Source of the DNA: a virus
Direction: 5' to 3' (one strand)
Length of the DNA stretch: 64,000 nucleotides
IMG/VR virus record: IMGVR_UViG_3300028608_000006
Span: 124,001-188,000 of that record
The notes beneath the pieces were generated by a model. It had not been told where the DNA came from. It did no database searches and saw nothing but the letters and a program-made list of their open reading frames with translations. Both the position numbers and the translations under genes were made by a program. Positions 6,559 through 44,351 of this stretch are shown piece by piece. How positions within the stretch are numbered: position 1 is the first letter of the stretch; each line of letters starts with the position of its first letter.

Positions 6559-6615
6559 TAACCTTACTACTACCCAACCCCATTACGGAGGTTGGGTAGT
6601 AGGGGTTATGTTTGC
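6558..6615 (+). terminator. bidirectional hairpin with TTATGTTTGC tail
   Basis: A 13-bp perfect stem (6567-6579 with 6590-6602) is extended by ATAACC/GGTTAT at its base and followed by TTATGTTTGC at 6606-6615. It lies between the convergent spike gene and the 961-aa fibre gene, so it probably stops transcription from both sides. Confidence 0.75.
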
Positions 6616-37076: not shown

Positions 37077-37148
37077 AGAAACATTAATATTGCGTTCTAA
37101 TTCAATAATGTAGGTTTCAAAGATTCCAATGGAAACAAAGAGAAGGCG

Positions 37149-40124: not shown

Positions 40125-41657
40125 ATGAACGATTTACTGGTGTTGGTTAAGATCCTCTCGGCGCTTTATCAAGCAAAGAAGCTGAAAGACACTAACTTAA
40201 TCAACGAACTTGTGGAAACCTTGGAAGAGCTCCCGAAACCTAATGCTGACGTTTTCAGTCACGATAAGGAAACTCGTGAGAGCATTAAGGCGACAATTCA
40301 GTGGTTGCTGAAACAACCCAACGACGAGCCTGTTATAAAATCATTGCTAATGCAGCGTGTAGAGCTGTTCTGCAAGAATGACGAGTCGTTGAAGAAGACC
40401 ATCGCCGCCGGCCTTGAAGATTGCGAAGATGAAGAACTCACTCGCAAGTTGGTCTATAAACATGTTACCGAAGTTCGACTGAACGGCGAGACTGAAGCCT
40501 TCCAGAAGAAGTTCAAGCAAGCACTCTCCCCTTTCTACTTCAAAGACATCTCCGAGATGAAGAAGGAAGACTGGGGTAACCTGATCGACATGATTCAGGA
40601 GCGGGTCAACAATACCTACGACGAACGTACATCGGAAATCGTTTATACGGTTACCTCTGGTACTCCTGAGTCTTTCTTCCAAATCATTGAGATGGCGAAG
40701 AAGGAAAACAGTAAGCAAGGTATTCTCAAGCTTGGTCTGCATGCACTGAACCAAATGCTTGAACCTGACGGTGGTTTGCGTCGTAGTAAGTTCTACCTGA
40801 TCAACGCACTGACTAACCGCGGTAAGTCGTTGACCATGGCGCACATCTTGGCCTCGGTCGGTTTGTACAACATTCCGATGCTGCGTAACAACGCCAAGAT
40901 CCCTACGCTGCTCATGGAGTCCTCAGAAGACACCATGGACCTGATCATCATGCGGATGTACAAACTCGCATTGAGCGTTCAAGGTCAGTTAGACGGTGAC
41001 TTCCAAGTCGATGCTGCGGAAGACATTGTTACCACCATCGTTAAGTGCTTCAAAGAGAACGGTTGGTTCCTGATCATTAACCAGATCGAAGCGAACAAAG
41101 ACAGCATGCAAGGCATGTTTGACCGGGTTCGTAATCTGGAAATGAAAGGCCACGAGATCATCTTCTACGGTTACGACTACTTGGGTCTGGTTCCTATCGA
41201 CAAGATCCCTGGTGAAAGCAAGTCTGACAAACTTCAGATTCTGTTCCGTCGTGTTCGTTCTTTCATGATTGCTCGTGGTATCTGCTTTGTAACACCGCAT
41301 CAACTTAGCCCAGAAGCCAAGAAGATGTTGAAGGAAACAGACGATGAGTCTGAAGTCTATTTTGCTCGTGAAGTAGCTGGTAAGTCCATGACTGAGACCT
41401 CCACCAAGATCACGAACGAAGTTGATGTTGAGCTGACCATCCATGTAGCGAAAACCCCAAACAAGAACTACTTTACAGCGTGCGTGGGGAAATCGCGTGG
41501 TGAAGGTTGTGAGCCGAGCAAACGCTTTGCTATCTACGACCTCGATCCAATCCATGGCTTGAAGCACGACATCAATGGTCGACCTGCCTTCCGTCGTAGC
41601 CTGCAACAGAAGATCACTGACAACGGTGAACTTGTTTCTGACTTCGACATGTTGTAA
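40125..41657 (+). CDS. DnaB-type replicative helicase
   Basis: 510 aa. It unwinds DNA at the replication fork as a ring hexamer. The Walker A loop is ALTNRGKS at 228-235, with Ala in first place as in DnaB (AxPxxGKT). The catalytic glutamate is probably E265 (LLMESSED). Walker B ends in YGYDYLGLV with D351, like DYLQL of DnaB. A later conserved stretch (PHQLSPEAK) fits motif H3. The N-terminal 220 residues are helical, as for a primase-interacting or collar domain. GGGGAG precedes the ATG. It diverges from the 181-aa gene and ends at a TTATGTTTGC hairpin. Confidence 0.85.
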   Translation: MNDLLVLVKILSALYQAKKLKDTNLINELVETLEELPKPNADVFSHDKETRESIKATIQWLLKQPNDEPVIKSLLMQRVELFCKNDESLKKTIAAGLEDCEDEELTRKLVYKHVTEVRLNGETEAFQKKFKQALSPFYFKDISEMKKEDWGNLIDMIQERVNNTYDERTSEIVYTVTSGTPESFFQIIEMAKKENSKQGILKLGLHALNQMLEPDGGLRRSKFYLINALTNRGKSLTMAHILASVGLYNIPMLRNNAKIPTLLMESSEDTMDLIIMRMYKLALSVQGQLDGDFQVDAAEDIVTTIVKCFKENGWFLIINQIEANKDSMQGMFDRVRNLEMKGHEIIFYGYDYLGLVPIDKIPGESKSDKLQILFRRVRSFMIARGICFVTPHQLSPEAKKMLKETDDESEVYFAREVAGKSMTETSTKITNEVDVELTIHVAKTPNKNYFTACVGKSRGEGCEPSKRFAIYDLDPIHGLKHDINGRPAFRRSLQQKITDNGELVSDFDML

Positions 41658-41711: not shown

Positions 41712-41760
41712 CCCTCTCTCCAGGTTCATTCCTGGGAGAGGGTAAAAGGTTTATGTTTGC
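41712..41760 (+). terminator. hairpin with TTATGTTTGC tail after helicase gene
   Basis: CCCTCTC...CCAGG pairs with CCTGGGAGAGGG (41712-41742, one bulged base). AAAAGG and then TTATGTTTGC at 41751-41760 follow. Confidence 0.7.
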
Positions 41761-41930
41761 CTGTCAGCTATTTACAGGGCTGCGACGCTCTACAATGCGA
41801 TTACAGACGTTTTGAGAATACTCTCCTCTCCTTGTCTGGATTACTTCATTTAAATGCTTTAACGAGGTTTTGGAGTGAAGGATCCTATAGGCGTGCTTTT
41901 ATTCGGGAAGGCTTTAAAGAGGGTATTGAC

Positions 41931-42815
41931 ATGATGGAGGCATTAATAGGCATCGGCGGGGCGCCTGACTATAGCGGTAGCTGGCAACAAATGGCGACCA
42001 CCGGTGGACCAGTATTAAAAACAGCAATATCTGCAGCCGGGATAGGCGATAAGGTCTATACGTTTGGCGGGCAGGTTGGCGGGACCTATTATCGTGATCT
42101 TCGTTATTTCGACGTTACGAATGGGACATGGACGACACTTGGTAACGGAACCATGGTTGTTCGACATAACGCCGTTATGGTTGCCATGGGAGGTAAGCTC
42201 TACGTACACGGTGGGAATAACAGCACTGGCGGTCTTAATGATGTTTGGATGTACGATCCAGATCTAGCCACTTGGACTCAGAAACTGGCGGGTACCATCA
42301 GACACACGGCAGCGGCAGCCGCGGTCGGGAACAAGATGTATGTTTGTGCTGGGTGGTTAAGCAATTACTTAGCTGATCTGAAAGTCTACGACGCCGACGC
42401 CAACACTTGGCAAACGCTCTCGCCTCTACCAGGTGCTGCACGCAGTGACCACACGATGGCTTCGGTGGGGACCAAGCTTTACTTGTACGGCGGTGGTAAC
42501 GCCGGCGGACAGTTAAGCGACCATTGGTGTTACGACACCTTGACGGATACTTGGACCCAACTGGCTGATGGACCACCTGCTCGTTTCAGACACACAGCGG
42601 TCACCATTGACGATAAAATTTACGTCTTTTCTGGTAAACCTGTCGGAGTTAACAGCAACGAGCTGTGGTGTTATGATCCGACTGATGACAGCTGGACATT
42701 AATGAGGACAATCCCAACCTCTGGACGGGCTGATCATTATGCTGGTGTTGGTGCTGGGAAGATGATCACCGGCATGGGTAACGGTGTGCTGGACTGCTGG
42801 CAATATACGCCTTGA
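41931..42815 (+). CDS. Kelch-repeat beta-propeller protein
   Basis: 294 aa. Five repeats of the Kelch type are clear, each with a strand such as KVYTFGG, KLYVHGG, KMYVCAG, KLYLYGG or KIYVFSG, then Tyr/Phe-Asp and Trp about 6 residues later (YFDVTNGTW, MYDPDLATW, VYDADANTW, CYDTLTDTW, CYDPTDDSW). A sixth blade would be closed by the N-terminal SWQQ and the C-terminal DCWQY strand. No other domain is present. The start at 41931 has AGAGGG upstream; a long open frame reaching 41757 is not supported. A solitary Kelch propeller is unusual beside a helicase. It may bind a host protein or glycan. It has its own terminator. Confidence 0.8.
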   Translation: MMEALIGIGGAPDYSGSWQQMATTGGPVLKTAISAAGIGDKVYTFGGQVGGTYYRDLRYFDVTNGTWTTLGNGTMVVRHNAVMVAMGGKLYVHGGNNSTGGLNDVWMYDPDLATWTQKLAGTIRHTAAAAAVGNKMYVCAGWLSNYLADLKVYDADANTWQTLSPLPGAARSDHTMASVGTKLYLYGGGNAGGQLSDHWCYDTLTDTWTQLADGPPARFRHTAVTIDDKIYVFSGKPVGVNSNELWCYDPTDDSWTLMRTIPTSGRADHYAGVGAGKMITGMGNGVLDCWQYTP

Positions 42816-42872
42816 TCCACTCTTTTACTTTTCTTGGTAACCGGTTGCCCAGGCAACACAACGAATAAGGCA

Positions 42873-42905
42873 TACTCTCCTACTCCGCTAAGGAGTAGGA
42901 GAGTA
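42873..42905 (+). terminator. 14-bp hairpin after the Kelch gene
   Basis: 42873-42886 pairs perfectly with 42892-42905 around a GCTAA loop. It is followed by CTTGTTAAG. There is no TTATGTTTGC tail. It lies between the Kelch gene and the convergent 446-aa gene. I see no further gene in the 100 bp before 43011. Confidence 0.75.
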
Positions 42906-43010: not shown

Positions 43011-44351
43011 TCATTGATCCGCAGGGACTACGTTGTTCGCTAGGAACAATTCCAGGTTACTGTGTTCCCGGAAGATAGGCTGACCCGGGTTCTTGGTATC
43101 CTGTTGGTATTCCGAACGAACTGACACCACCGTTCCTTCACGATACATCAACGCCTGACTACCGCTCATGAAGTAGAAACGACATGGCATGCCCGGAACA
43201 ATCTCAGTCGCCCGAGAGTTGTGCCAAGTACGTGACACGATAGAGCCATCCGTGTACGCGTTCTGTGACAACAGCTTACACAGGTTGTTGGTCGGGGTAG
43301 AGTGGAAAGGAATGTTCTCCTCTTCACTACCACGTTGAGACGTCTTGTACTCGGACATGGAGTCTTCCCGTGTCGTGAGTGCTTGACCTCTGGCGTAGTA
43401 CTTACCCGTTTCGCCCATGATCGCATCAGAGCTCACCACACGCTTACCAGAGCCGTGGTTCTGCTTGTGGATGTCGCTGCCGTCCGTACTGTGACCTTCA
43501 CCCGTAGAGAGCACCGTGAGGACCTTATCATCAAGGAACCAACTGTTCTTCAGAGTGGGGAACACGTCAGACGGCAATGCGTAGATGTTGAGCACTTTCC
43601 GAGCATTGTCGTAACGACCCAACTTCAGAGGAGGAAAGATGTACCACATCCCTTTACGGTAGTAGGACGCCATCCCTCGACTGTAGAAGCCGAACTGATC
43701 GTCTTGCTGGAGGAACTCCGCCAGCTTAGGCAACGGCATAGGTGGAATGATGACTTGTCGGAATACCCGTGTGTTGTCGTACGGGTACTCGATGTCAACA
43801 CCCCGCCACTTATCACCCCCTGTCAAAGTCAGTTGTTCACCGAACTTGGTCAGCTGATAATGCAGGACGTTATCCAAGGTGGCCATCAGCATGTGGTCAG
43901 CCACGGTCTCGTTCTTCAACAGAGCGTAACCGATGTCCAGCAACTGGAATTCCACGGACACCATGTTCAGTGAGTCCTTGGTCGACAAATCCGCCAGAGC
44001 GGTGTTGTTCGCCGCCATAGGCGCGCTGGAGTCATGGAGTGGGATAGCCCTGAACCGATACATGGTCTGAGTGTAGCCCTGACGCTCTGTGACCTCGATG
44101 TAGAGGTTATCCTTCACCGGCAGTACGTTGTTCTGGTATACACCCGGTTGCAGCTGAGCTTTGATCCGGCAGTCATCAGAGTGGTTCACCCCAAACAACG
44201 CCAAACGAGCAAACCCAGTCGGAACAATCAACGGAATCTGCTCAGTGGGGGTAATGACCATCGCGGACATGGTAAAGATTCGTTCGCCACCACCCTGGTC
44301 GATCGTGTTGGCATACGCGACCAGGTTGGCTAACGGCTTTGGTACATCCAT
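43011..44351 (-). CDS. probable tail or baseplate protein (446 aa)
   Basis: 446 aa, not recognised. It is beta-rich with few lysines. Residues 255-330 have charged, flexible segments (STGEGHSTDGSDIHKQNHGS and YKTSQRGSEEENIPF). Its character resembles hub or wedge proteins of contractile tails. It is the last gene of a four-gene run (47880 to 43011) with overlaps of 1 to 4 bases or gaps of 3, so production is translationally coupled. The run probably makes one sub-complex of the tail. Confidence 0.5.
   Translation of the reverse strand: MDVPKPLANLVAYANTIDQGGGERIFTMSAMVITPTEQIPLIVPTGFARLALFGVNHSDDCRIKAQLQPGVYQNNVLPVKDNLYIEVTERQGYTQTMYRFRAIPLHDSSAPMAANNTALADLSTKDSLNMVSVEFQLLDIGYALLKNETVADHMLMATLDNVLHYQLTKFGEQLTLTGGDKWRGVDIEYPYDNTRVFRQVIIPPMPLPKLAEFLQQDDQFGFYSRGMASYYRKGMWYIFPPLKLGRYDNARKVLNIYALPSDVFPTLKNSWFLDDKVLTVLSTGEGHSTDGSDIHKQNHGSGKRVVSSDAIMGETGKYYARGQALTTREDSMSEYKTSQRGSEEENIPFHSTPTNNLCKLLSQNAYTDGSIVSRTWHNSRATEIVPGMPCRFYFMSGSQALMYREGTVVSVRSEYQQDTKNPGQPIFREHSNLELFLANNVVPADQ

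Follow-up and report, generated by a model that had tools for sequence, protein, structure and literature searches.

A Kelch gene next to the helicase gene of an EL-like jumbo phage

The window, that is, the entire 64,000-nucleotide stretch of DNA analysed here, corresponds to bases 124001–188000 of a virus record that totals 231,788 bp. The virus is an EL-like jumbo phage, with a helicase (40125–41657) that shares 67% identity with the homologue from Pseudomonas phage EL and 58% with that from Erwinia phage RisingSun, and with a major head protein of the PHROG family phrog_3231 encoded among the neighbours of the Kelch gene that is the subject of this work. Searching phages for near-identical DNA, with 24 kb from the window as the query, produced zero matches, and the sole match in a scan of viral contigs with the Kelch protein was a contig identical to the window across 10.7 kb, which we counted as the same genome. 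The locus includes the following features (window coordinates):

40125–41657, plus strand: DnaB-like replicative helicase (phrog_3213), the conserved left flank of the Kelch slot
41712–41742, plus strand: hairpin 3' of the helicase gene (-22.8 kcal/mol, z -4.6)
41865–42818, no strand assigned: inserted segment, 954 nt here versus 14 nt in the relative L025
41918–41923, plus strand: Shine-Dalgarno-like AGAGGG, 7 nt upstream of the ATG at 41931
41931–42815, plus strand: free-standing Kelch protein of 294 aa, predicted single six-bladed propeller (ORF, Pfam, AlphaFold2, Foldseek)
41931–41960, plus strand: codons specifying MMEALIGIGG at the N-terminus, a proposed docking tag (M-[FILMV]-E-x-[LM]; pattern comparison)
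42873–42905, no strand assigned: hairpin between the Kelch gene and the convergent structural operon (-27.3 kcal/mol, z -7.3)
43011–44351, minus strand: phrog_3245 protein, the conserved right flank, within the structural operon on the opposite strand

The Kelch gene lies on the helicase strand, and the structural genes on the other one. The first-pass annotation located it between a helicase gene and a tail operon; the helicase gene is indeed there, but the genes downstream of the Kelch gene are classed by PHROG as structural or have no function assigned, so that "tail operon" is at most a putative label. The mechanical ORF extends 5' to a TTG at 41757; we place the start at the ATG at 41931 because AGAGGG is located 7 nt upstream and homologues start at the same residue. 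No EL-type promoter was detected ahead of the Kelch gene, where the best score in the slot is 5.1 compared to 25–30 for the annotated promoters of EL. Elsewhere in the window, the EL annotated promoter motif (AAACCTACATTAT) is matched on the minus strand at 37104 and 3014, with scores of 25.1 and 20.7, respectively, on the same scale. Outside the window, a 567-aa ORF (L023:886–2589, minus strand) looks, by eye, like a GroEL-type chaperonin; EL carries an annotated GroEL-type chaperonin, gp146.

The assignment of ORF 41931–42815 to Kelch exceeds chance by far. The Pfam model Kelch_1 matches in five stretches (E = 3.2e-51; 170.8 bits versus a cut-off of 20.1), and ten Kelch-type Pfam models match the 294-aa protein with E-values of 2e-16 or better; no other Pfam domain comes near its cut-off. 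The AlphaFold2 model (mean pLDDT 75.6, pTM 0.80) contains 24 strands, which fit six four-stranded blades, so that a closed propeller is predicted; the top Foldseek matches are the solved Kelch domains of LZTR1, KLHL12, NS1-BP and Keap1, with TM of about 0.7–0.8. The initial observation of Kelch repeats with no other domain is thus confirmed by the five Kelch_1 stretches and the 24-strand model. The Pfam model of the NANM (N-acetylneuraminate epimerase) family scores above its bit cut-off, but its best stretch spans just 11–125 of 350, that is, the match is not full-length. Among the virion fibre families, the protein does not match phrog_1062, and its best phrog_16120 stretch covers 279–431 of 511, which is the Kelch part of that family; the N-terminal repeated modules of the phrog_1062/phrog_16120 fibres are absent from the window protein.

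Insertion into a variable slot

By helicase similarity, L025 is the closest relative (96% identity, a value common to the short contig L026). The alignment of the window with L025 runs to 41864 and resumes at 42819, and the 954-nt segment in between consists of the Kelch gene, a 66-nt leader and 3 nt past the stop codon, facing 14 nt in L025; the entire L025 record (233,283 bp) contains no Kelch_1 matches. This clean, one-gene insertion bears out the earlier suggestion of later acquisition. The simplest explanation is that this lineage gained the Kelch gene; alternatively, the gene may have been lost in L025.

Both flanking genes were found in 48 loci, namely, the window, its identical copy L024, five loci of named phages and 41 other IMG/VR loci (some of these are second copies of named phages). 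None of the 46 loci from relatives contains a Kelch gene between the helicase and phrog_3245 genes, nor does any Kelch match come from the remaining IMG/VR helicase loci, which lack a detected phrog_3245 and lie outside the 46. Homologues at the same place in all relatives, the outcome that the first-pass annotation had set against its own reading, were thus found there in no relative examined. Across the loci, the slot is 79 to 3111 nt long and contains unrelated ORFs; its contents were inspected in EL, RisingSun, pTD1, FishSpeaker, phiKp_32 and MIZ-Pa99, with EL carrying gp72–75 as cargo, and RisingSun an HNH gene together with a hypothetical one. The GC3 of the Kelch gene is 0.52, compared to 0.59–0.71 in six neighbours. 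The leader shows no DNA similarity to other loci, the 3' flank alone being matched, in L025 and L026; a 27-nt stretch within the Kelch gene matches a bacterial contig.

Both hairpins are still recognisable in the relative without the Kelch gene and therefore appear to be a property of the neighbours, the convergent helicase gene and structural operon, rather than of a Kelch unit. Accordingly, the hairpins that had been taken to bound a separate unit are real but belong to the flanking genes. GC-rich hairpins with GG(T)TTAT[AG]TTTGC directly after them occur in the window at 6604 (plus strand), 41749 (plus strand) and 61910 (minus strand), and the same combination is present in L025, in L028 and after the EL major head gene; this is perhaps the form that terminators take in these phages.

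Kelch relatives in tail loci

Kelch_1 matches were obtained in 10 of the 26 related records, either at fibre ends or in free-standing proteins of about 300–313 aa, with tail-fibre surroundings wherever the neighbourhood was inspected. EL itself has two Kelch genes, gp153 (“putative Kelch-like protein,” adjoining the tail-fibre genes) and gp155 (virion structural). Kelch proteins are present also in Noxifer, PhiPA3 (gp360), PA1C, D6, CBB and other phages, several of them labelled virion structural, a label that is an annotation. The view that Kelch propellers are rarely described in phages goes too far given this list, and passages of the CBB paper cite still other Kelch proteins in Pseudomonas and Yersinia phages (PMC5259590); a passage of an Erwinia jumbo phage paper states that the functions of phage Kelch proteins have not been elucidated (PMC7760394).

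The closest homologues of the window protein are free-standing Kelch proteins of L132 (41.1% aa identity) and L105 (38.1%), each encoded, in the tail loci of related phages, by the gene immediately after that of a Kelch-tipped fibre. The window's own genome encodes a fibre of 734 aa (record positions 81780–83984), whose C-terminal Kelch domain is 36–37% identical to the window protein. The phylogenetic tree, overall poorly resolved with 10 of the 23 inner branches open, joins the window Kelch, the tail-locus free-standing Kelch and the Kelch end of the phage's own fibre with support of 90/87. Thus, the propeller phylogeny called for at the outset finds the nearest kin in tail loci, free or fused to fibres. 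Cellular homologues are distant (five loci, 25–31% identity), with no donor among these five.

The Kelch-tipped fibre of this genome is 94–95% identical to that of the related tail loci, and DNA identity with the related contigs is 83% across the fibre, skips the free-standing Kelch gene and then picks up again; hence the tail locus is collinear with those of the relatives but lacks the free-standing Kelch gene behind the fibre. The helicase-side copy may have moved from the tail locus, or else the tail copy may have been lost and another one gained; the 38–41% identity to the tail-locus kin is too low to demonstrate a direct move.

The tail loci of L132 and L133 offer a closer view of how such genes change. 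The helicase proteins of the two are 100% identical and the fibres 98.5% identical, and 117 of 127 consecutive 100-nt blocks of the tail loci are at least 90% identical. The 10 blocks below 90% form one uninterrupted run over the free-standing Kelch gene (L132:8200–9184), which shows 52–79% DNA identity and 57.9% aa identity, with the first 11 residues alike in both alleles (MLEALIGGLAG and MFEALVGGLAG). From the sequences, this difference looks like a cassette exchange, and the pattern fits host-range pressure. The fibres appear in more than one form as well: in L149 and L150 (relatives G019 and G013), the same fibre (67–68% identical) ends ...GWRPIIEEV without Kelch, whereas the fibre of this genome reads ...GWRPQIEEL at that module border and then continues into Kelch.

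A short N-terminal peptide shared by some tail-locus proteins

Beginnings similar to the MMEALIGIGG of the window protein are found in other tail-locus proteins of the same genome: MFEALVGIGS in a non-Kelch protein, MIEQLVSTGS in the Kelch fibre and, in a third protein with a GTG start, FESLLFTAA after the first residue. Of the tail-locus ORFs, 22 of 224 begin, at their first start codon, with M[FILMV]E.[LM], compared to 0 of 560 from helicase loci (Fisher p = 5e-13; 16 and 57 stretches, respectively), where the tail stretches were chosen for Kelch or fibre matches, so that the figures describe those loci and not a random sample. Within the first 40 codons, the counts are 30/224 and 5/560, the five helicase-locus cases being internal methionines 19–26. 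Among non-Kelch ORFs, the tag lies in the first 20 codons of 19 of 208 in tail loci compared to 4 of 541 in helicase loci (p = 4e-8), given a crude sorting of Kelch ORFs by regular expression that classed 19 helicase-locus ORFs as Kelch.

In the window, the tag is found in one of 45 ORFs, the Kelch ORF itself. With a slightly wider pattern, which also admits Y in position 2 and I in position 5, it occurs in one of 192 ORFs of EL (gp155; gp153 is a near miss, MLESQL) and in one of 133 ORFs from three stretches of phiKZ (gp298, annotated as structural). In one stretch of PA1C, 4 of 22 CDS carry the tag; two are annotated as virion structural, and one of these two is a Kelch protein starting MFEALLGIG. 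The tag is also present on Kelch proteins of PhiPA3 (gp360), D6 and HPP-Temi, and is absent from the Kelch of Erwinia phage Hallingskeid, which we take to represent another lineage. In Hallingskeid (L153:2923–6744), another jumbo phage, the untagged Kelch-like gene is followed by three genes annotated as “regulator of chromosome condensation,” which makes a run of propeller-type proteins.

In the structural model of the window protein, residues 1–13 have pLDDT below 50 and are predicted to be disordered, which fits a peptide that would fold on a partner and is no proof of this. At the DNA level, some observations count against the tag. The pattern combined with a ribosome-site-like start occurs at four further sites of this genome that are not confirmed gene starts, and the counts in four relatives, which include overlapping matches, exceed the reversed control by little or not at all (7 vs 10, 10 vs 3, 10 vs 4 and 16 vs 4); the bare DNA pattern alone is no proof. 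The literature surveyed yielded no description of the shared peptide, and we do not claim that it is unpublished.

A candidate swappable virion tip

We consider it fairly probable that the Kelch protein serves this EL-like jumbo phage as an adhesin, namely, an exchangeable tip of the virion that is docked through its first ~10 residues. MMEALIGIGG would be a docking peptide, shared with further proteins of the virion and tail locus in phiKZ/EL-like phages, and would attach to a tail or baseplate hub; the single six-bladed propeller would bind a host-surface receptor through its loops; the helicase-side copy would do the job of the tail-locus copy missing here; and the single-domain tip would be exchanged between phages as one gene. 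Both presence in the virion and receptor binding are inferred. Of the two roles initially suggested, host-interaction factor or glycan-binding virion protein, a virion protein is favoured by the tail-locus setting of the homologues and by the common N-terminal peptide. Against a tip stand the location of the gene, which adjoins DnaB and is separated by ~82 kb from the Kelch fibre encoded in the tail locus, the absence of an EL-type promoter before it, and the shortness of the tag, which is predicted to be disordered and is imperfect in EL gp153.

An intracellular, non-virion accessory protein, such as a host take-over, anti-defence or superinfection factor whose propeller binds a host protein, seems unlikely. 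Genes of that kind typically sit in variable cargo slots, and unrelated small genes occupy this one in relatives (EL gp72–75, RisingSun HNH); furthermore, the Kelch domains with solved structures bind mostly proteins, as judged from PDB entry titles, and the gene is oriented with the helicase, opposite to the structural genes. These points are countered by the N-terminal peptide, which virion and tail-locus proteins also have, and by the nearest kin, which are found in tail-fibre loci and at fibre ends. The overlap with NANM and galactose-oxidase-type Kelch models, along with some database names that read galactose oxidase, could instead point to a decoy, or to a glycan-binding lectin or an enzyme similar to galactose oxidase or NANM, that is secreted or released from the particle, as opposed to a docked tip. 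The galactose oxidase propeller has seven blades, whereas the model strands here fit six; with the best NANM stretch partial and the N-terminus, by eye, unlike a signal peptide, we regard this as improbable. It is hardly probable that the gene is a recent capture that persists without function as a passenger in an intergenic slot that tolerates it: the insertion of a single gene missing in the closest relative and the GC3 value below those of the six neighbours would agree with such a passenger, but the 294-aa frame, the ribosome site and the repeats are intact, and cellular sequences of like kind are distant.

Returning to the virion tip, a broader and distinctly tentative proposal is that phiKZ/EL-like phages use a docking code of ~10 residues to mount any tip domain, Kelch or other, from a gene located anywhere, with tips swapped, duplicated or moved as single-gene cassettes; the window gene would be one that moved to a replication-side cargo slot. 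The window protein carries the N-terminal M-[FILMV]-E-x-[LM] of this proposed group and is encoded away from the tail-fibre locus in which such proteins would be sought; phiKZ gp298 and the tagged PA1C members likewise lie outside the main tail genes. The window gene would be a stray member of this proposed group of tagged, swappable tip proteins, and it is the group that is of interest: Kelch in a phage is already known, phage Kelch proteins as a whole are little understood, and the placement beside a helicase gene is unusual. To our knowledge, the receptor-binding proteins of phiKZ/EL-like phages are poorly characterised. If the proposal is true, a very short shared peptide would make tip candidates findable by sequence alone in every genome of this type, even outside the tail locus, and would serve as a simple handle for docking and host-range tests; the near-identical pair L132 and L133, in which a single Kelch gene has been exchanged, offers a natural experiment for the role of that gene.

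Comparison with known systems

Pectobacterium phage CBB encodes Kelch propellers as well (CBB_550, 552 and 554), one of which, CBB_552, was detected by mass spectrometry as a component of the mature phage according to passages of the CBB paper (PMC5259590); unlike the window phage, CBB is Rak2-like, from another lineage. The protein gp298 of phiKZ resembles the window protein in that it is tagged (MFELLLS), 335 aa long, annotated as structural and encoded away from the gp131–135 tail genes, but its Kelch signal is weak and sub-threshold; the one literature passage found on a gp298 concerned that of another phage, and the main text of the phiKZ interaction map (PMC10449902) does not mention 298. 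The PA1C Kelch (MK599315, 312 aa, annotated as virion structural) is tagged and free-standing, like the window protein, and differs in showing 28.5% identity to it and in residing in a tRNA-rich region with other tagged genes. EL gp153 is also free-standing, at 308 aa, but is very diverged, has the degenerate tag MLESQL and adjoins gp155 (virion structural), gp156 (tail fiber) and gp157. The phage's own 734-aa fibre (L022:7781–9982; phrog_1062/phrog_16120) shares the propeller and an N-terminal MIEQLV with the window protein, but ~445 residues of repeated fibre modules precede its propeller. The greatest likeness is to the Kelch proteins of L132 (8268–9167) and L105 (7529–8428), which consist of one propeller, are 300 aa long and start with MLEALIGG or MFEALVGG; in the tail locus, these genes immediately follow that of a Kelch-tipped fibre, whereas the window gene lies beside the DnaB helicase gene.
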